Below the pieces are notes generated by a model that searched no databases, was not told the origin of the DNA, and saw only the letters and a list, made by a program, of their open reading frames with translations. Positions 10,651 through 48,803 of a stretch of DNA of 48,900 nucleotides are shown here, one piece after another. The position numbers and the translations under genes are program-made. This stretch comes from Alterluteimonas quercicellularis (GTDB lineage Bacteria; Pseudomonadota; Gammaproteobacteria; Xanthomonadales; Xanthomonadaceae). Numbering within the stretch: the first letter of the stretch is position 1; each line of letters begins with the position of its first letter. The stretch is taken from NCBI RefSeq assembly GCF_021191635.1, contig NZ_JAIWPR010000012.1, positions 1 through 48,900 on the forward strand, written 5' to 3'.

Positions 10651-10764
10651 CTTTCGCGCTCCGCACGAAAGCCCCACGGTTCGCGCAGCGAACCGCGGGC
10701 CCCAGCGGAATCGCCTTCCACAACCCCCGCGCCTTCGGCGCGCCCCCCTTGACTCAAGGGGGGC
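10651..10764. repeat. Hairpin array between mdh and prpE
   Basis: Four inverted repeats in 114 bp directly after the mdh stop. They are CTTTCG/CGAAAG (10651-10671), CGGTTCGC-GCA-GCGAACCG (10677-10695), a GCGCC-TTC-GGCGC hairpin near 10728-10741, and a perfect GCCCCCCTTGA-C-TCAAGGGGGGC palindrome (10742-10764) followed by TCTTC. The last may act as terminator. The rest of the gap to 10904 has no gene. Confidence 0.6.
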
Positions 10765-10904
10765 TCTTCATCCGGGGGCTCGATGTGTTCGGAAAGAGAG
10801 CGCGTTCCATCCTCTTTCCGTTTTCCCGGGGTACGACCAAGGTCGCAGGCGCGTGCACGGGACGCGGCGCTATGCTCGAACGCGGTTTCCTGGGAGGGCG
10901 CCGC

Positions 10905-34124: not shown

Positions 34125-34219
34125 GGGCAGCGCCCGGTCCGGCCCGTGCTGCGCTGCGGGCGCCCGCCCGCGCGGGGTGGGTAGACTTGCGGTCCCCCGC
34201 CGACAGGAGACCGTTCCGG

Positions 34220-36364
34220 ATGACCCCCCGCCTGATCGCCGCGCTGCTCGCGCTCGCCGCCGCCCCGACCCTGGCCGGAGAGGGCATGTGGGTCCCGCAG
34301 CAGCTGCCGGAGATCGCGCAACCGCTCAGGCGCGCCGGGCTGCGCCTGCCGCCGGAGCAGCTGGCCGACCTCACCGGCGACCCGATGGGCGCGGTGGTCT
34401 CGCTCGGCGGCTGCACCGCGAGCTTCGTCTCCCCGCAGGGGCTGGTGGTGACCAACCACCACTGCGCCTACGGCGCCATCCAGCTCAACTCCACGCCCGA
34501 GAACAACCTCATGCGCGACGGCTTCAACGCCGGCGGGCGCCCAGGCGAGCTCAGCGCCGGGCCCAACGCGCGCATCTACGTGCTCGACTCGATTCGCGAC
34601 GTCACCGCCGAGGTGCAGCGCGCCATCGCCGGCGCCCCCGACGCGATCGGCCGCGCGCGCGCCTTCGAGGCGATCGAGAAGCGGCTGGTGGCCAGCTGCG
34701 AGTTCCAGCCCGGCCACCGCTGCCGCCTGTACGCGTTCGAGGGCGGCGGCGCCTACCGCCTGTTCCGCAACCTGGAGATCCGCGACGTGCGCCTGGTCTA
34801 CGCGCCGCCGGGCGGGGTGGGCAACTTCGGCGGCGAGGTCGACAACTGGATGTGGCCGCGGCACACGGGCGACTTCGCGTTCTACCGCGCCTACGTCGGC
34901 CCGGACGGCCGCCCCGCCGACCACGCCGCCGAGAACGTGCCCTACCAGCCGCGGCGCTGGCTGCGCTTCGCGCAGGAGCCGCTGCGCGAGGGCGACTTCG
35001 TGATGGCGGCCGGCTACCCCGGCACCACCAACCGCTACGCGATCGCCGCCGAGTTCGAGCAGACCGCGGACTGGATGTACCCCACGCTGTCGGCGCACTA
35101 CAAGCGCCTGCTGGCGCTGGTGGAGGAGGAGGGCCGCAAAAACCCGGAGATCGCGGTGCGCTACGCCAGCGTGGTCGGCGGCTGGAAGAACGCCTCGAAG
35201 AACTACGACGGCCAGCTCGAGGGCTTCGCCCGCATCGGCGCCGCCGCGCGCAAGCGCGAGGAGGAGGCCGCGGTGCTGGCCTGGCTGCGCGAGCAGGGCG
35301 AGGCCGGCGCGCCGGCGCTCGAGGCGCACGCCGAACTGGTGCGCAGCGCCGCGGCCGGCGACGCCGTGCGCGACCGCGACCTGGTCACCGGCCAGCTGCA
35401 CCGCCTGGGCACGATCGGCGTGGCGATGACGCTCTACCGCAACGCGATCGAGCGCAGCAACCCGAACACCGAGCGCGAGCCGGGCTACCAGGAGCGCGAC
35501 CAGGCGACCATCGAGGGCGGCCTGCAGCAGATGGAGCGCCGCCACCACCCCGACATGGACCGGATCCTGCAGCGCTACTGGTTCGCCGAGTACGCGAAGC
35601 TGCCGCCGGCGCAGCGCGACCCGGCCATCGACCAGTGGCTGGGCGGCCACGATGCCGCCGCGGTGGAGCGCGCGCTGGACCGGCTGGCCGGCACCCGCCT
35701 GGGCCAGCTCGAGGAGCGCATGCGCTGGCTGACCGCCGACCGCGACGCGTTCGAGCGCAGCGACGACCCGGCGATCCGCTACGCGGTGGCGGTGACGCCC
35801 TCGATGCTGCGGCAGGAACTCGAGCGCAAGGCGCGCGGCGGCGACCTGCTGCGCGCGCGGCCGCTGTACCTGGGCGCGGTGGCCGGCTACCGGCACAGCG
35901 CGGGGCAGGCGGTGTACCCGGACGCGAACTCGTCGCTGCGGATCACCTTCGGCCAGGTCACCGGCTACACCAAGCTCGACGGCAGCGCGCAGGCGCCCTT
36001 CACCCGGCTGGAGGAGGTCGCCGCCAAGGCCACCGGGCAGGAGCCCTTCGACGCGCCGCAGGCGCTGCTCGACGCGGTCGCGGCCAAGCGCTACGGCGGG
36101 CTGGCCGATCGCCGCCTGCGCACCGTGCCGGTGAACTTCCTCTCCGACCTCGACGTGACCGGCGGCAACTCCGGCTCGCCGGTGCTCGACGCCCACGGCC
36201 GCCTGACCGGGCTGCTGTTCGACATGAACTGGGAATCGGTGAGTTCCAACTGGGTGTTCGATCCGGCGATGACGCGGACCATCTCGGTCGACCAGCGCTA
36301 CCTGCGCTGGATCATGCAGGAGGTGTACCCGGCGCCGGACCTGCTGCAGGAACTGGATCTGTAG
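34220..36364 (+). CDS. S46 family dipeptidyl peptidase
   Basis: Periplasmic serine exopeptidase releasing N-terminal dipeptides (714 aa, as DPP7/DPP11). Residues 1-20 are a signal peptide ([17 protein letters not shown]). The catalytic triad is H81 (TNHHC), D218 (RHTGDF) and S651 (GGNSGSP). The specificity position 18 residues after the serine, Gly in DPP7-type and Arg in DPP11-type enzymes, is Met669 (LLFDMNWES). CAGGAGA sits 10 bases before the ATG at 34220. Its TAG stop lies within a GTAGGCGCGCGC repeat. It is divergent from tdh and likely supports peptide nutrition. Confidence 0.93.
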
Positions 36365-39894: not shown

Positions 39895-41367
39895 ATGTGC
39901 GGCATCGTCGGCATCGTCGGAACTTCCGAGGTCGCGCCAGCGCTCTACGACGGCCTGACCGTCCTCCAGCACCGCGGCCAGGACGCGGCGGGCATCGCCA
40001 CCGCGGTCGGCACCCAGCTGCGCGTGCACAAGGGCAACGGGCTGGTGCGCGACGTCTTCGACGCGCGGGCGATGGCCCTGCTCGAAGGCCGGGTGGGCAT
40101 CGCCCACTGCCGCTACCCGACCGCCGGCTCCGAGGGCAGCGACGAGGCGCAGCCCTTCTACGTCAACTCGCCCTACGGCATCGCGCTCGCCCACAACGGC
40201 AACCTGATCAACACCGACGCCCTGCGCAACCAGGTGTTCGAGCAGGACCGCCGCAACATCAACACCGATTCCGACTCCGAGGTCCTGCTCAACGTGTTCG
40301 CGCACGAGCTGGACCGGCAGAAGGCGCTGACGCCCGACGCCGCGTTCCGCGCGATCGACGGCGTCAACCGGCGCGCCAAGGGCGGCTACGCGGTGGTGGC
40401 CACGGTGCTCGGCCTGGGGCTGGTCGCGTTCCGCGATCCGCACGGCATCCGCCCGCTGGTGCTGGGGCGGCGCGAGACCGCGGCCGGCACCGAGTACGCG
40501 GTGGCCTCGGAATCGGTGGCGCTGGACATCCTCGGCTTCGAGCGCCTGCGCGACGTGGCGCCGGGCGAGGGCATCGTGATTACCGCGCGCGGCGAGCTGC
40601 ACCACCGCCCCTGCGCGGAGCCCGCCGGCTTCGCGCCCTGCATCTTCGAGTACGTCTACTTCGCGCGCCCGGACTCGATGATCGAGAACATCTCCGTGCA
40701 CAAGGCGCGCATGCGCATGGGCGTGACGCTGGGCGAGAAGATCCTGCGCGAGCGCCCCGACCACGACATCGACGTGGTGATCCCGATCCCGGACACCTCG
40801 CGCGATTCGGCGCTGGAGATCGCCAACGTGCTCGACGTGAAGTACCGCGAGGGCTTCATCAAGAACCGCTACGTCGGCCGCACCTTCATCATGCCGGGGC
40901 AGGGCGAGCGCGCGAAGTCGGTCAAGCGCAAGCTCAACCCGATCCCGCTGGAGTTCCGCAACCGCGTGGTGCTGCTGGTCGACGACTCGATCGTGCGCGG
41001 CACCACCTCGCGGCAGATCGTGCAGATGGCGCGCGATGCCGGCGCGCGCAAGGTCTACCTGGCCTCGGCCGCGCCGCCGGTGCGCTACCCGAACATCTAC
41101 GGCATCGACATGCCCTCGACCGACGAACTGGTGGCCAACGGGCGCAGCGAGAAGGAGATCGAGCAGCTGCTCGGCTGCGACTGGCTGATCTACCAGGACC
41201 TCGCCGACCTGGAGAAGGCGGTGGCCGGGCAGAAGTTCCGCGGCATGCGCTTCGACAGCTCCTGCTTCAGCGGCGAGTACGTCACCGGCATCGAGCCGGG
41301 CTACTTCGAGCGCCTGCAGCAGCTGCGCTCGGACGAGGCCAAGAAGAAGCGCCGCGTGGCCTCGTGA
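39895..41367 (+). CDS. purF: Amidophosphoribosyltransferase
   Basis: First committed step of purine synthesis: PRPP plus glutamine to phosphoribosylamine (490 aa). Class II glutamine amidotransferase N terminus with nucleophile Cys2 (MCGIVGIVG). The PRPP-binding loop is [19 protein letters not shown] near residue 360. CRYPTAGS and HNGNLIN also fit the family. CAGGTGAATCTCC precedes the ATG. A short 34-bp gap leads to the DUF455 gene. Confidence 0.97.
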
Positions 41368-41401: not shown

Positions 41402-42214
41402 ATGAGCGCCAGCCTGCTGGGCGCCGCGCGCGCCTGCCTGGAAGCATCGGACCCCGACCGCAAGGTCGCGCTGACCCGCGACGCGGCCGCCGCGTTCGCG
41501 CGCGGCGCGCTGCCCGTCGCCGCCGGCGACGCCCCGCCCGGGCCGATCCGCATGCCCGGCCGGCCGGAGCGCCCGCGGCTGGTGCACCCGCGCGAACTGC
41601 CCAGGCGCGGCTTTGGCACCCGCGAGGGCCGCGCCGCCTTCGTCCACGCCATCGCCCACATCGAGCTCAACGCGATCGACCTCGCCTGGGACGCGGTCTA
41701 CCGCTTCCGCGGCCTGCCGGACGCGTTCTACGCCGACTGGGCCGCGATCGCCGACGACGAGGCCCGGCACTTCGTCCTGCTGCGCGACCGCCTGCGCGCG
41801 CTCGGCCACGACTACGGCGACTTCGACGCCCACAACGGCCTGTGGGAGATGTGCGAGAAGACCGCGCACGACGGCCTGGCGCGGATGGCGCTGGTGCCGC
41901 GGGTGCTGGAGGCGCGCGGGCTCGACGTGACCCCGGGCATGATCGTGAAGCTGCGCGCGCTGGACGACCACGAGACCGCGGACATCCTCGAGGTCATCCT
42001 GGCCGAGGAGGTCGCCCACGTCGCTGCCGGCAGCCGCTGGTTCCGCTGGTATTGCGCGCAGCGCGGGATCGCGCCGGAGCCGCGCTTCCGCGAGCTGCTG
42101 GCCGAGTACGCGCGGGCCGTCCTGCACGGGCCGTTCAACCTCGACGCGCGCGCCGCGGCGGGGTTCAGCGCCGAAGAACTGGACGCGCTGCGGGCGGCCG
42201 CCCTGGGGGCGTGA
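41402..42214 (+). CDS. DUF455 ferritin-like protein
   Basis: Ferritin-like helical-bundle protein of the DUF455 family (270 aa), possibly di-metal. Conserved carboxylate and histidine motifs occur in pairs: AHIELNAIDLAWDAVYRF near residue 86, DDEARHFVLL near 119 and LAEEVAHVAAGSRWF near 201. Its biochemical role is not established. It follows purF by 34 bp, so it may be cotranscribed. The next gene (lanA1) is 231 bp downstream with no promoter I can defend. Confidence 0.85.
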   Translation: MSASLLGAARACLEASDPDRKVALTRDAAAAFARGALPVAAGDAPPGPIRMPGRPERPRLVHPRELPRRGFGTREGRAAFVHAIAHIELNAIDLAWDAVYRFRGLPDAFYADWAAIADDEARHFVLLRDRLRALGHDYGDFDAHNGLWEMCEKTAHDGLARMALVPRVLEARGLDVTPGMIVKLRALDDHETADILEVILAEEVAHVAAGSRWFRWYCAQRGIAPEPRFRELLAEYARAVLHGPFNLDARAAAGFSAEELDALRAAALGA

Positions 42215-42445: not shown

Positions 42446-42634
42446 ATGCAGCACGAAGACATCGTCAGCGGCTGGCTGAGCGGCGCGGACAGCGTGGACG
42501 GCTACGAGAACCCGGCGGGTTCGCTGTACGTGGAGGGGATCGCGGCCACCGAGGCGGCGATGACGCACCGCGACTTCTTCCTCCTGACCCAGTGCAGCTC
42601 CTGTACGGCGTCCAGCCCCGTGCACTGTTGCTAG
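42446..42634 (+). CDS. Mersacidin-type class II lanthipeptide precursor 1
   Basis: Precursor peptide (62 aa) for the LanM encoded 0.4 kb downstream. The leader MQHEDIVSGW...NPAGSLY has the W and NPAG landmarks of mersacidin/lichenicidin-family leaders. The C terminus TQCSSCTASSPVHCC has four cysteines (50, 53, 61, 62) and six Ser/Thr for lanthionine rings. No GG/GA site lies just before the cysteine core, so the leader boundary is unclear. ACAAGGAG 8 bases before the ATG is a strong ribosome binding site. A GNRA hairpin follows. The peptide is 320 bp from its paralogue. Confidence 0.88.
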   Translation: MQHEDIVSGWLSGADSVDGYENPAGSLYVEGIAATEAAMTHRDFFLLTQCSSCTASSPVHCC

Positions 42635-42642
42635 TGCGAAAC

Positions 42643-42668
42643 GAACGGGCCCCGCGAGGGGCCCGTTC
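42643..42668 (+). terminator. Hairpin between the two lanthipeptide precursors
   Basis: GAACGGGCCCC - GCGA - GGGGCCCGTTC, an 11-bp perfect stem with a GNRA tetraloop, 8 bp after the lanA1 stop. No T-run follows (CCGTATGG), so it probably stabilises the lanA1 message or allows partial read-through. Confidence 0.6.
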
Positions 42669-42765
42669 CCGTATGGCGAGCGGCCGGCGATCGCGCCGGC
42701 CGTGCGTCGGCGCAGGCGCGGCCTGCGCCGTCTCGCGAGTTGGACCACCGACAAGGAGAAGCGAC

Positions 42766-42957
42766 ATGCAGCACGAAGACATCGTCAACGGCTGGCTGGG
42801 CGGCGCCGACAGCGTCGACGGCCACGACAACCCGGCCGGCTCGCTGTACACCGGAGGCGTGGAGGCGACCGAGGCCTCGATGGCCGGCCCGCAGTTCGGC
42901 CTGCTGACCCTGTGCAGCCTGTGCACCGGGTCGTCGACGACCGAGCACTGCTGCTAG
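42766..42957 (+). CDS. Mersacidin-type class II lanthipeptide precursor 2
   Basis: Second precursor (63 aa), with the same leader plan (MQHEDIVNGW...NPAGSLY) and a core CSLCTGSSTTEHCC. Cysteines are at 50, 53, 62 and 63. Seven Ser/Thr from T48 on are available (T48, S51, T54, S56, S57, T58, T59). Leader identity with peptide 1 is high, while the segment between NPAG and the core is more diverged. A matching ACAAGGAGA ribosome binding site precedes the ATG at 42766. An upstream frame from 42592 is read-through and not a better start. Confidence 0.88.
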   Translation: MQHEDIVNGWLGGADSVDGHDNPAGSLYTGGVEATEASMAGPQFGLLTLCSLCTGSSTTEHCC

Positions 42958-42965
42958 CGGCACCC

Positions 42966-42995
42966 GCGCGCGGCGGCCTGCGGCCGGCCGCGCGC
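42966..42995 (+). other. Hairpin between lanA2 and lanM
   Basis: GCGCGCGGC (42966-42974) pairs with GCCGCGCGC (42987-42995), with a further GGCC/GGCC pairing in the loop. It could lower lanM expression relative to the precursors. Confidence 0.45.
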
Positions 42996-43058
42996 CTTCC
43001 ACGCGGCGCCGTCGCGAGCCGACGGTGCCGGGACACCAGGAACACATCGGGGCAGGGC

Positions 43059-45941
43059 ATGGACGAACAGCAGGCAGGGGGCGCGGCGTTCGACCGCGCG
43101 ATCGACATCATCGCCGCCGACGCGCGCCGGGGGCTGGACGCGCGGCTGGCCGAGGCGGCGCGCGGGCTGGCCGACGCGGAGCGCGCGGTGGTGGCCGAAG
43201 CGGCGCATCGCGCCCTGGCCGGCAACGCGCGCCGCAAGCTCAACCGGGTGCTGCTGCTGGAGCTGCACGCGGCGCAGCTGGCCGGACAGCTGCGGGCGCA
43301 GGACGAGCGGGCGCGCTTCGAGGAGTTCGTCGAGCTGGCCTGCCGGCCGGCGTTCCTCGACCACCTCGCCGCGCGCTACCCGGCGCTGCGGCCGCGGCTG
43401 CAGCGCACCCTCGACCAGCACGCCGAGGCGCTGGCGCTGCTGGTGCGGCGGCTGGTCGCCGACCGGCCGCGGCTGCGCGCGCTGACCGGCGCGCCGGAAG
43501 GCGCGCTGCACGCGCTGCGGCTGGGCGAGGGCGACGTGCACAACCGCGGGCAGGCGGTGGCGCAGGTGGCGTTCGAGGGCGGCAGCGTGATGTACAAGCC
43601 GCGGCCGCTGGAGATCGACCTCGCCCTGGAGGGCTTCCTGGCGCGCGTGCTGGGCGATGCGCCCGACCGCATCCGGGTGCCGGCCTCGCTCGCGCGCGGC
43701 GACTACGGCTGGACCGAGTTCGTCGTCCACCGCTACTGCGAGGGCGAGGCGGAGCTGGCCGCGTTCTACCGCAACATCGGCCACTGGCTGGCGGCGATGC
43801 GCCTGCTCGGCGGCACCGACCTGCACCACGAGAACATCGTCGCCGCCGGGCCGGTGCCGGTGGCGGTCGACGTCGAGAGCCTGTTCGCGCCCGAGGTCGC
43901 GGTGGCGCCCGGCGGGGTGGGCGAGGCGATGGACGAGGCGACCCGGCTCATCACCAGCTCGGTGCTGCGCACCGGCCTGGTGCCGTTCCGCGCGCCGATG
44001 CTCGGCCTGCACGGCGTGGACATCTCCGCCGCCGGCGCGCTGCCCGGCGAACAGCCGAAGATCCGGGTGCCGCTGATCGCCGGCGCCGGCACCGCCTCGG
44101 CGCGGATGCGGGTGGCCGACGTCGAGCTGCCCGCGGCGCGCAACCACCCCTGTCCGCGCCCGGACATCTCGCAGCACTGGAACCACGTCGTGGACGGCTT
44201 CGCCGACCTGACCCGGCGCCTGCAGGCGCTGGACCGCGAGGGCGCGCTGCGGCCGCTGCTCGAGCCGTTCGCCGGCTGCGTGGTGCGCCGCATCCGCCGG
44301 CCCACGCAGGCGTACTCGGAGGTGATGCGCATGCTGTGGCATCCCGCCTCGCTCCACGACGAGCCGCCGGCGCTGGCGCGCGCCCGCGACATCCTGCGCC
44401 GCAACGCCGAGGTGCTGCCGGTGGCGCCGGGCGATCCGCAGGTCATCGCCGCCGAGGTCGAGGACATGCGCCACGGCGACATCCCCGTGTTCGCCGAACG
44501 GCTCGCGCCCGCCGACGTCGGCGGCGTGCTGGACGGCTGGCGCGGGATGCGCCTGGAGATGGAGGAGCTGACCATCCGCGGCGCGCTGGTGACCGCCTAC
44601 CTCAACGGCCGGCTGGCCGATCGCCAGGGCGCGCCGCGCGACATCCTCGCCCGGCACCCGCACGCGCGCGACTTCGACGCCCGCCGCCGCCGCCTGGCCG
44701 CGGCCACGGTGGAGAAGCTGCTGCGGCTGTCGGTGCGCGGCGGCGACGGCACCCGCACCTGGATCAGCCCGGTGCTGGGGCCGGAGGGCTGGACCATGCG
44801 CACGCTGCAGGCCGATCTCTACATCGGCCTGGGCGGCATCGCGGTCGCGCTGGCCGGCTACCGGCACGAGCTGCGGCTGGGGCGCGCCGATCCGGTCGAC
44901 GGGCTCGACGCCGCGATCGCCGGCACGATGCGGGTGGCCGACGCGCTGGAGACGCGCGAGCCGATCGACGCGGTCGGCGGCTTCATCGGCCTGGGCTCGC
45001 AGGTGCTGGCCTGGCTGACCCTGCACGGCCTGGACGGCGAGCCGGAGATGCTGGCGCGCGCCCAGCGCAGCGCCGCGGCGATGGCCCGGCGCGGTTTCCC
45101 GGCGGCGGGCAACCTGGACCTGCTGGAAGGCGTCAGCGGCGCCATCGTGCCGCTGCTGCAGCTGGCCGAGGCCGACGGCGACGCGCGCTGGCTCGACCTC
45201 GCCGCGCAGGCCGGCCGCTGCCTGGAGGCGGCCGCGATCGTCGACGCGGACGGCGCGCGCTGGCCGAGCGCGATCTTCCACCTGCCCTTGGGCGGCTTCG
45301 CCCACGGCGTCACCGGCAGCGGCTGGGCGCTGGCGCGGCTGGCGCTGAGCGCGGCGGGCAGCGCGGCCGACCGCGAACGCTGGTCCGCGCTCGCCGGGCG
45401 CGCGTTCGCGTTCGAGGACGCGTTGTACGACCACGCGGCGCAGGACTGGATCGACGTGCGCAAGCCCGGCACCGGCGACTTCCCGGACACCTGGTGCCAC
45501 GGCAGCGTCGGCATCGGGCTGGCCGCCTGCGACCTCTACGCGCGCACCGGCGCCGAACGCCACCTGGACACGCTGCGCCGCGCGGTGCGCGCCGCCGACC
45601 GCCGCGGCTGGGGCATCAGCCATACCCTGTGCCACGGCGACCTGAGCCTGTGGGAACTGATGACGCGCGCCGAGGCGCTCGATCCGTCGCTGCGGCGCGA
45701 GGACGCGCTGCCGGCCGGCGTGCGCATCGTCTCGGCGATGGAGGAGTACAGCGGCGCGGTCGGCGGGCTGGCGCGCGACACCTACACGCCGGGCCTGATG
45801 AGCGGAGTGTCGGGGTCGGTGCACTTCCTCAACCGCCTGCACCCGGACTGCAGGCTGCCCTCGCCGCTGCTGCTGGAGAGCGCCGCCGCGCCGCGGCCCC
45901 GCGCCGCGCCGGAGGCGGCGGAGGCGGCCGCTGCGGCGTAG
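43059..45941 (+). CDS. lanM: Class II lanthipeptide synthetase LanM
   Basis: Bifunctional dehydratase/cyclase (960 aa, typical LanM size). The N-terminal dehydratase (DUF4135) shows KPRPLEIDL near 180, T253-D-L-H-H-E-N259 and DVES near 271. These form the kinase-like site that phosphorylates and eliminates Ser/Thr. The C-terminal LanC-like cyclase has zinc ligands C813 (WCHGSVG), C858 and H859 (LCHGDLS), 45 residues apart as in known LanM enzymes. The last ~20 residues are Ala-rich. It lies 101 bp after lanA2; it presumably modifies both precursors. No LanT/LanP, immunity or regulator gene is adjacent. Confidence 0.95.
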   Translation: MDEQQAGGAAFDRAIDIIAADARRGLDARLAEAARGLADAERAVVAEAAHRALAGNARRKLNRVLLLELHAAQLAGQLRAQDERARFEEFVELACRPAFLDHLAARYPALRPRLQRTLDQHAEALALLVRRLVADRPRLRALTGAPEGALHALRLGEGDVHNRGQAVAQVAFEGGSVMYKPRPLEIDLALEGFLARVLGDAPDRIRVPASLARGDYGWTEFVVHRYCEGEAELAAFYRNIGHWLAAMRLLGGTDLHHENIVAAGPVPVAVDVESLFAPEVAVAPGGVGEAMDEATRLITSSVLRTGLVPFRAPMLGLHGVDISAAGALPGEQPKIRVPLIAGAGTASARMRVADVELPAARNHPCPRPDISQHWNHVVDGFADLTRRLQALDREGALRPLLEPFAGCVVRRIRRPTQAYSEVMRMLWHPASLHDEPPALARARDILRRNAEVLPVAPGDPQVIAAEVEDMRHGDIPVFAERLAPADVGGVLDGWRGMRLEMEELTIRGALVTAYLNGRLADRQGAPRDILARHPHARDFDARRRRLAAATVEKLLRLSVRGGDGTRTWISPVLGPEGWTMRTLQADLYIGLGGIAVALAGYRHELRLGRADPVDGLDAAIAGTMRVADALETREPIDAVGGFIGLGSQVLAWLTLHGLDGEPEMLARAQRSAAAMARRGFPAAGNLDLLEGVSGAIVPLLQLAEADGDARWLDLAAQAGRCLEAAAIVDADGARWPSAIFHLPLGGFAHGVTGSGWALARLALSAAGSAADRERWSALAGRAFAFEDALYDHAAQDWIDVRKPGTGDFPDTWCHGSVGIGLAACDLYARTGAERHLDTLRRAVRAADRRGWGISHTLCHGDLSLWELMTRAEALDPSLRREDALPAGVRIVSAMEEYSGAVGGLARDTYTPGLMSGVSGSVHFLNRLHPDCRLPSPLLLESAAAPRPRAAPEAAEAAAAA

Positions 45942-46028: not shown

Positions 46029-46751
46029 TCAGAGCCCTTCGAGGCGGAAGTCGTCGCCGTCGGCGCGCAGCACCGAGCCCTGCGCGTACCAGTCGCCCAG
46101 CACGATGCGGCGGCGGCCGCCGTCGAGCCGGTGGATCGCCGGGCGATGGGTGTGGCCGTGGATCATGGTGTCCACGCCGTAGCGGGCGAAGGTCGCGTCG
46201 ACCGTGGCCGGCGCGACGTCGGTGATCGTCTCCATGGTGCCGGCGTCGCGCAGCGCGCCCTGGCGCGCCTGGCTGGCCGCGCGCGCCTGCTGCGCGAAGG
46301 CGAGCCGCGCCTGCAGCGGCTGCGCCAGCATCCCCGCCTGCCACGCCGGATCGCGGGTCTGCGCGCGCACGGCCTGGTAGTCGACGTCGTCGGTGCACAG
46401 CAGGTCGCCGTGGGTCAGCAGCACCGGGCGGCCGCCGAGCACGATCACAGTCGGATCGGGCAGCAGGCGTAGCCCCGCGCGTGCGGCGTAGTCGCGGCCG
46501 AGCAGGAAGTCGCGGTTGCCGTGCATGAACCACACCGGCACGCCGGCCCCGGACAGCGCCGCGAGCTTCCCGGCCACGAAGGCGCCGGCCTCGGACGGAT
46601 CGTCGTCGCCGACCCAGGACTCGAACAGGTCGCCGAGGATGTACAGCGCCTCGGCGTCGCGCGCCTGCCCGTCGACGAACCCGCCGAACAGCCGGGTGAT
46701 CTCCGGGCGCGCGGGGTCGAGGTGCAGGTCCGAGATGAAGAGCGTGGTCAT
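46029..46751 (-). CDS. lpxH: UDP-2,3-diacylglucosamine diphosphatase
   Basis: Metallophosphoesterase of lipid A synthesis that yields lipid X (240 aa). Dimetal-site motifs are all visible: ISDLHLD near residue 6, [12 protein letters not shown] near 40, [10 protein letters not shown] near 75, LLTHGD near 113 and IHGHTHRPA near 197. The ATG at 46751 gives [10 protein letters not shown]; an upstream ATG at 46760 is an alternative. It is divergent from gltX and convergent with lanM. Confidence 0.95.
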
Positions 46752-46805
46752 GGCGCGCATTGTAAGGGCCGTCCGCGAGCGCGGGCGGCGGGGCGGGGTG
46801 CACGG

Positions 46806-46838: not shown

Positions 46839-48245
46839 ATGACCGTCCGCACCCGCTTCGCTCCCAGTCCCACCGGCTACCTGCACATCGGCGGCGCGCG
46901 CACCGCGCTGTACTGCTGGCTGGCGGCCCGGCGCGCCGGCGGCCGGTTCGTGCTGCGGATCGAGGACACCGACCGCGAGCGCAGCACGCAGGCGGCCATC
47001 GACGCGATCCTGGAGGCCATGGACTGGCTGGGCCTGGACTACGACGAGGGCCCGGTCTACCAGACCTCCCGGGTGGACCGCTACCGCGAGGCCGCCGAGC
47101 GCCTGGTCGCCGACGGTCAGGCCTACTACGCCTACGAGTCGAAGGCCGAGCTCGACGCGATGCGCGAGGCGGCGATGGCGCGCGGCGACAAGCCGCGCTA
47201 CGACGGCGCCTACCGCGAGCGCGGCGCGCCCTGCCGGGACGACCCGAACCGGGTGATCCGGCTGAAGAACCCGGTGGACGGCACGGTGGCCTGGGACGAC
47301 CTGGTCAAGGGCCGCATCGAGATCGCCAACGCCGAGCTGGACGACCTGGTGATCTTCCGTCCCGACGGCTATCCCACCTACAACTTCGCGGTGGTGGTCG
47401 ACGACCTGGACATGGGCATCACCGACGTGGTCAGGGGCGACGACCACGTCAACAACACCCCGCGCCAGATCAACATCTACCGCGCGCTCGGCGCCGAACC
47501 GCCGCGTTTCGCGCACCTGCCGATGATCCTCGACGAGCACGGCGCCAAGCTGTCCAAGCGCACCGGCGCCGCCGACGTCATGCAGTACCGCGAGGCGGGC
47601 TACCTGCCGCACGCGCTGCTGAACTACCTGGTCCGGCTGGGCTGGTCGCACGGCGACCAGGAGATCTTCTCGATCGAGGAGATGACCGCGCTGTTCGACC
47701 TGGCCGACGTCAACGCCAAGGCCTCGCGGCTCGATCCCGCCAAGCTCGGCTGGCTCAACCAGCAGTACCTGAAGACCGACGCGCCCGAGGACGTCGCGCG
47801 ACACCTGGCCTGGCACCTGGAGCGCGCCGGCTACGACCTCGCGCGCGGCCCCGCGCCGGCCGACGTGGTGCTGGCGCTGCGCGACCGCGTGCAGACCCTG
47901 GCCGACATGGCCGAGCGCGCGGCGGTCTGGTACCGCCCGCTGGCGGAGTACGACGACAAGGCCGTGGCCAAGCACCTGAAGGCGGAGGCCCGCGCGCCGC
48001 TGGCCGATGCCCGCGCGCGCCTGGCCGCGCTGCCGGACTGGAGCGCCGAGGCGGCCAACGAGGCGCTGCAGGCGACCGCCGCGGCGCTGGCGCTGGGCAT
48101 GGGCAAGGTCGCGCAGCCGATGCGGGTGGCGATCACCGGCACCCAGGTCAGCCCGGACATCGGCCACACCGTGTACCTCGCCGGCCGCGAGCAGGCGCTG
48201 GCGCGGATCGACGCGGCGCTGGCGCGGATCCCGGCGGAGGCCTGA
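46839..48245 (+). CDS. gltX: Glutamate--tRNA ligase
   Basis: Charges tRNA-Glu (468 aa). The class I HIGH signature is [19 protein letters not shown] near residue 6. The KMSKS-type loop is [17 protein letters not shown] near 237, and the [10 protein letters not shown] segment is also present. The C-terminal anticodon-binding domain fits the family. ATG at 46839. It is followed by zur on the same strand after 63 bp. Confidence 0.97.
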
Positions 48246-48308: not shown

Positions 48309-48803
48309 ATGCCGAGCGCCCGTGCCCACGCCTGCACCGATCCCAAGCACCACGTCCACGACGCGGCGGGCTACGTGGCCGCGGTGGAGGCGGCCTGCGT
48401 GCGCCGCGGCCTGCGGCTGACGCCGATCCGCGCGCACGTCCTGGGCCTGGTGGCCCGCGCCGAGAAGCCGCTCAAGGCCTACGACCTGCTCGACCGGGTC
48501 CGCGAGGGCGACGGCCCCGGCGCGCCCGCGCCGCCGACGGTGTACCGCGCGCTCGACTTCCTGCTCGAGCACGGCTTCATCCACAAGCTGGAGTCGATCA
48601 ACGCCTTCGTCGCCTGCCACCACCCGAGCAGCCGGCAGCACTCGGTGCCGTTCCTGATCTGCGACACCTGCCACAGCGCCACCGAGCTGGAGGACGAGGA
48701 GGCGGTCGAACTGCTCGACGCCCGCGCCCGCGCGCTGGGCTTCGTGCCGCAGGCGCAGACGCTGGAAGTGCACGGCACCTGCGCCCGCTGCGCGGCGGCC
48801 TGA
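48309..48803 (+). CDS. zur: Fur-family zinc uptake regulator
   Basis: Fur-type metal-sensing repressor (164 aa), with Zur preferred over Fur. The winged HTH has [16 protein letters not shown] near 32-47 and [21 protein letters not shown] near 76-96. The sensor half has metal ligands [20 protein letters not shown], while the structural zinc is set by CDTC and CARC near the C terminus. The extended, His-rich N terminus is typical of Zur. The window ends shortly after. Confidence 0.85.

Follow-up and report, generated by a model that had tools for sequence, protein, structure and literature searches.

A probable class II lanthipeptide locus with two DUF6229-family precursors in Alterluteimonas quercicellularis and no transporter gene adjoining it

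How a lanthipeptide could be matured and released from a locus that encodes two precursors and one modification enzyme, with no export gene beside them, is the question raised by a short gene cluster of Alterluteimonas quercicellularis. The cluster is located in the window analysed here, i.e. the whole stretch of 48,900 nucleotides at positions 1 to 48,900 of contig NZ_JAIWPR010000012.1 (RefSeq assembly GCF_021191635.1, a draft of 109 contigs, here genome G000). As a first-pass annotation of this DNA had proposed, it comprises two tandem precursor genes and an intact lanM, all three open reading frames (ORFs) being present on the plus strand: lanA1 (42446-42634), specifying precursor 1 of 62 aa, lanA2 (42766-42957), specifying precursor 2 of 63 aa, and lanM (43059-45941), encoding a class II lanthionine synthetase of 960 aa. 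The cluster probably belongs to the DUF6229 (rhodanocin-related) family of class II lanthipeptide loci, with two precursors that are both modified by one LanM. The single LanM would dehydrate conserved Ser and Thr residues of both peptides, thioether rings would likely be closed onto the four core cysteines of each, and the products may have an antibacterial or signalling role.

The two domains expected of a class II enzyme, a DUF4135 dehydratase and a LanC cyclase, are both present in LanM with their motifs intact. The protein matches TIGR03897 with 481 bits (cut-off 304), DUF4135 with 304 bits and LANC_like with 107 bits, and its earlier placement within the DUF4135/LanC family was thus upheld by homology. 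Alignment with its solved relatives LicM2 and CylM located the dehydratase motifs YKPR179, DLHHEN254, DVESLF271 and RRIRRPT410, while the cyclase zinc motifs WCHG812 and LCHG857 were aligned with LicM2, the cyclase part of CylM aligning with the window LanM only as an insignificant stretch; the residues of these motifs presumably have the catalytic roles that we assume for CylM and LicM2. Ratios of nonsynonymous to synonymous substitution rates (dN/dS) of 0.16-0.25 were obtained for LanM in four species pairs, and over the 939-948 codons of LanM compared between the window and three relatives no stop was encountered; at the sequence level, the enzyme is under purifying selection. These ratios, together with the recurrence of the locus at one and the same site in four more genomes of the genus, argue that the locus is more than a chance arrangement.

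Both precursors exceed the 25-bit cut-off of the Pfam family DUF6229 (PF19740) over their full length, with 84.3 bits for precursor 1 and 71.1 bits for precursor 2, and both carry beside lanM the Ser/Thr/Cys-rich C-terminal core expected of class II lanthipeptides. The notion of a mersacidin-type precursor was not sustained, as no NCBIfam model matches either peptide at E up to 1 and a match to a curated precursor model was our test for membership of the mersacidin/lichenicidin family. The DUF6229 leader is conserved around WL.GAD....NPAGPLy.eG and nearly all precursors end in or near CC, with cores that sort into six types according to patterns that we drew up after the cores had been seen, type E being the remainder. 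The window precursors are of type A, T-x-C-S-[SL]-C-[ST]-[AG]-S-x(4-5)-C-C, a pattern kept in 13/13 precursors compared from genera g1 and g16 (for locus L053, whose two peptides are identical to those of L052, neither was included); g1 is taken to be Luteimonas by kinship with the named loci L001 and L002, and g16 is, at a guess, Lysobacter. In the numbering of precursor 1, the core of which comprises approximately residues 44-62, the residues kept across type A are T48, S51, T54 (Ser or Thr) and S56 as well as C50, C53, C61 and C62, one g1 peptide (the second copy in genome G395) having an additional Cys. Core limits and ring donors, as suggested by this conservation, would permit four (methyl)lanthionine rings, in whatever pairing, from T48, S51, T54 and S56 onto C50, C53, C61 and C62; a further Ser of precursor 1, S52, probably does not take part in rings, because Leu is found at the same position in precursor 2. 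In each of the five pairs compared for precursor 1, dN is much lower than dS, so that this gene, too, is under purifying selection at the sequence level.

That relatives of these precursors stand next to other lanM genes was also borne out: a same-strand LanM directly follows DUF6229 in all 56 loci examined from the family Xanthomonadaceae and Dyella, which, alongside the DUF6229 precursors and the intact LanM motifs, agrees with the original description as a class II lanthipeptide locus. These 56 loci are made up of 50 fetched stretches (up to ~10 kb per side, less at contig ends), the window, a second locus of the window genome in two contig copies, and three LanM-led loci; 54 of them are distinct, holding 60 DUF6229 ORFs, and the LanM relatives L004 and L005 (26% and 23%) were left out of the DUF6229 scan. 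The second locus (L011:6622-9995 and L012, contigs C6/C8) has a core of type C; the reading as two separate copies was rejected, as the two contig ends share a 5171-base overlap of 100% identity and it is probably one locus. No neighbour gene common to the 56 loci was found with the rough gene calls of our own script, and the number of contexts among them is 22 when two gene clusters have to be shared and 5 when one suffices, L011 and L012 being counted separately. On a quick tree of 54 LanM proteins and two outgroups the six core types need 5 changes, the minimum possible for six types, and the window LanM falls in a clade sister to that of the Dyella relative L003, the LanM of which is 42% identical to it.

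With the window genome counted in each tally, DUF6229 was detected in 34/395 genomes of the family (57 places, 5/54 genera), in 3/369 genomes of a class sample (2 over cut-off) and in 3/398 genomes of a phylum sample. The first-pass annotation had called class II lanthipeptides uncommon in this family, which holds for the number of genomes and is tempered by their spread over five genera and by the 72 class II clusters published for Lysobacter, according to passages of PMC11451712. Outside the family, among the actinobacterial stretches L138-L142, three loci (two of Embleya, one of Nonomuraea) pair a DUF6229 ORF, found with a profile of our own construction, with a LanM 43-44% identical to that of the window, and around two further Embleya DUF6229 ORFs (L139, L141) a LanM match was lacking over 12 kb; the pairing is the rule in the family loci and not in Embleya. 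As a separate observation, an Enterococcus phage record (OR846606.1, 31560-32561) partially matches the dehydratase region of LanM, at 24% across 35% of the query, and 173 plasmid records had a LanM match, 3 of which were inspected.

The precursor and lanM genes are preceded by a DUF455 gene (41402-42214, plus strand), upstream of which lies a gene for a glutamine amidotransferase-domain protein (39895-41367), and are followed by a convergent gene for a calcineurin-like, lpxH-like phosphoesterase (46029-46793, minus strand) and a further ORF (46839-48245). This agrees with the flanks first described, the names purF, lpxH and gltX for three of these genes being those assumed in the first-pass annotation. 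Between the DUF455 gene and the last of these ORFs no transporter, protease or regulator gene was seen, in line with the earlier statement that no LanT, LanP, LanFEG or regulator adjoins the locus; the contig ends 2,959 bases past lanM, but relatives that share this site carry on with the same genes. DUF455 was matched in 51/52 genomes of the genus searched, and among the 30 loci returned and examined DUF455 is followed by lpxH and gltX in 23, lanA-lanM lies between in 5 (window included) and 2 were not judged. Relative to those 23/30 loci the lanA-lanM unit is an insertion between DUF455 and lpxH. At this site two precursors are also present in G395 and one each in L. huabeiensis (L001), L. 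abyssi (L002) and G374. A peptidase S46 gene lies ~6 kb upstream of the precursors (34187-36364), and an ORF beyond gltX, ~2.4 kb after lanM (48309-48803), has what we take to be the look of a Fur-family regulator.

With regard to export, a LanT-dependent system would have a C39-ABC gene (C39 peptidase joined to an ATP-binding cassette transporter, ABC) in its cluster. A tblastn search with a single reference found none next to any of the 56 loci; in a profile search, no C39 domain lay within 10 kb of a DUF6229 place in the 34 DUF6229 genomes, the lists having been compared by eye. A peptidase-free ABC transporter follows LanM in 5/17 rhodanocin-type loci; it shares 42-48% identity with the product of an Embleya ABC gene that converges on LanM and, chiefly over the ATPase part, 29-38% with the C39-ABC, and represents a candidate for the export step in those relatives. 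A profile built from four of these five transporters and the Embleya protein scored 1072-1127 bits in the five source-locus genomes (four by construction, only G303 being independent) as compared to at most 358 bits in the other 17/22 genomes searched, including each of the 10 (that of the window among them) which carry a type A locus; owing to this difference, an orthologue of the exporter is probably missing from the window genome, a draft of 109 contigs. As the sole C39 exporter found in that genome belongs to another cluster (see below) and no peptidase-free orthologue was found, we infer that the peptides may leave via a general ABC exporter and that a general protease may remove the leader. 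The first-pass annotation held that these steps must be encoded elsewhere or use a general pathway; tests for an exporter elsewhere turned up the C39-ABC of that other cluster and no orthologue of the peptidase-free ABC. An M13 metallopeptidase gene, present within ~7 kb in 8/56 loci, was considered as leader protease and rejected, as each of the 34 genomes has 2-6 M13 matches and orthologues 87-89% identical occur in three stretches where no LanM was matched, so that the gene more likely stood there before the locus. Likewise, an ABC-like gene near L056/L057 was rejected as exporter, having two ABC_tran stretches and no membrane-domain match.

The two precursors had been taken to suggest either a two-component product or two related products. 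In a classical two-component lantibiotic the products would differ in role and act together, and it is consistent with such an arrangement that tandem pairs occur in 5/10 distinct type A loci as compared to 0/45 others and that a DNA tree parts the precursors of g1 and g16 at 100/100, from which it follows that pairing probably arose at least twice. However, L052 and L053 are near-copies, so that the five pairs are not independent, three genomes have a single copy at the same site, and dissimilar cores, as in the two-component pair described in passages of PMC9576775, are not found here, the pattern T-x-C-S-x-C-[ST]-x-S...CC being kept in both peptides. Since both precursors share the likely ring-forming residues, a classical two-component lantibiotic is unlikely, and the half of the earlier suggestion that is favoured is that of related products: with a dN of 0.23 and a dS of 0.70 relative to lanA1, lanA2 is a tandem diverged paralogue, and the two peptides are likelier to be paralogous variants. 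On the precursor tree, which bears on the order of duplication, 2/10 inner branches are starred.

Other explanations concern release of the peptides. It is possible, if rather unlikely, that there is no active export, the branch having lost its exporter and the modified peptides acting inside the cell or leaving only on lysis; the peptidase-free ABC is indeed found in 0/10 genomes with a type A core, genome G370 carries the same locus at the same site and is among the 4/34 DUF6229 genomes without a C39 match, and the loci have no neighbour in common, yet a widespread background ABC of 337-358 bits in 21/22 genomes searched, which in the window genome lies at C16:17623-19125, could serve and the search took in no other efflux pumps. 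Alternatively, the one C39 protein found in the window genome, a C39-ABC on contig C55, might cleave and export the window peptides in trans, which the Gly-Gly at residues 30-31 of precursor 2 would suit. This protein, however, sits with HlyD, an ATP-grasp maturase (best match TIGR04187, below cut-off) and two short ORFs of its own (10665-10883 and 11195-11359 of L013:7218-12566), with leaders ending VSGG or IAGG and a tail THATG.NGDDPGDPG; related HlyD, C39-ABC and maturase genes with one such short ORF occur in G374 (L132), and from its gene content the cluster reads as graspetide-like. Precursor 1 is without Gly-Gly, and the locus is kept in G370 without any C39 match. LahT150 is, as we assume, a C39 protease. 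Rhodanocin precursor was not cleaved by LahT150 according to passages of PMC9576775, and export in trans by the C55 protein is on these grounds very unlikely. On the same contig, ~13 kb from the graspetide-like cluster, a 933-aa protein (L018:8542-11343) was noted with partial DUF4135, DUF6624 and no LanC match. Finally, the want of an adjoining transporter, protease or regulator and, in G395, a LanM of this site that is divided between two reading frames (L134:3740-6585) would fit a decaying remnant without product, but for the window this is hardly credible given the stop-free LanM of the window and three relatives and its low dN/dS. The two-precursor lanthipeptide locus served by one LanM hence remains our preferred reading, and several points weigh against it: the split LanM of G395 indicates that the system can decay; a C39 match exists somewhere in 30/34 DUF6229 genomes (29 over cut-off), the window genome included; the case for the export and leader-removal steps is built on negative searches of a draft genome; the product is a prediction from the genes; and dehydration may exceed ring closure, as in rhodanocin.

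The locus additionally contains two hairpins on the plus strand. A perfect 11-bp hairpin directly after lanA1 (42643-42668; stretch folding at -31.4 kcal/mol, z -3.37 and, in a second run, -3.1) is a possible attenuator or 3' stabiliser, while for a GC-rich hairpin between lanA2 and lanM (42966-42995; stretch folding at -37.3 kcal/mol) the folding is not beyond composition (shuffle z -0.65 and -0.06). The 60 bases 3' of lanA have z < -2 versus shuffles in 32/43 precursors of types A-D and F as compared to 1/17 of type E, a contrast part of which may be due to the 60-base stretch running into lanM at some loci. The significant hairpin lies after lanA1 in the window and after the second copy in four other paired loci; that it sets the precursor-to-enzyme ratio is a guess.

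Among known systems, the nearest is rhodanocin, LanII of Dyella sp. 333MFSha, whose DUF6229 precursor, when modified with its LanM, underwent 4 dehydrations and acquired 3 rings and after which the group was named, as set out in passages of PMC9576775. The window shares with it the DUF6229 precursor and LanM partner but differs in core type and from those loci grouped with rhodanocin (5/17) in which the peptidase-free ABC follows LanM, and with a core of type A rather than E and a LanM outside the L003 clade it is no rhodanocin in the narrow sense. Mersacidin/lichenicidin-type lantibiotics with LanT likewise have a class II enzyme and a Ser/Thr/Cys-rich core, whereas the window has no NCBIfam precursor match, no adjoining C39-ABC and no Gly-Gly in precursor 1. 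In Lysobacter, DUF6229 is found in 21/27 unique precursors, which form six similarity clusters (PMC11451712, in part); the precursor family is the same as ours and those clusters equal our core types in number, while the available passages of that paper make no mention of the insertion site, of a lanA2 paralogue or of exporter tests across whole genomes. Raised expression of LanM genes has been described in Lysobacter, where no lanthipeptide had been isolated as of 2023 according to passages of PMC10380237 and PMC10745450. The literature examined, whose scope mostly leaves out subscription papers, contained neither this Luteimonas-type locus nor the exporter comparison nor the relatives in Actinomycetota; new here are the fit of core types to the LanM tree, the lack of C39 beside 56 loci, the assignment of the C55 C39 protein, the peptidase-free ABC comparison and the shared ring residues of the two precursors.

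The window locus thus joins a published family of DUF6229 class II precursors. A wider proposal, which we offer tentatively and regard as doubtful, is that a self-contained DUF6229 precursor and LanM unit has become distributed across Lysobacterales and is also held in common with Actinomycetota, the window branch having shed the peptidase-free ABC so that its products would be intracellular or pass through a housekeeping exporter, with no dedicated transporter or protease genome-wide. If the branch does lack a dedicated exporter and protease, genome miners should not count on a LanT, and a double-Gly site should not be used to delimit the core; the native cut site and export route would have to be found by experiment. 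For the relatives with rhodanocin-type and Embleya loci, the peptidase-free ABC near some of these is an obvious candidate to supply the export step that is missing there.

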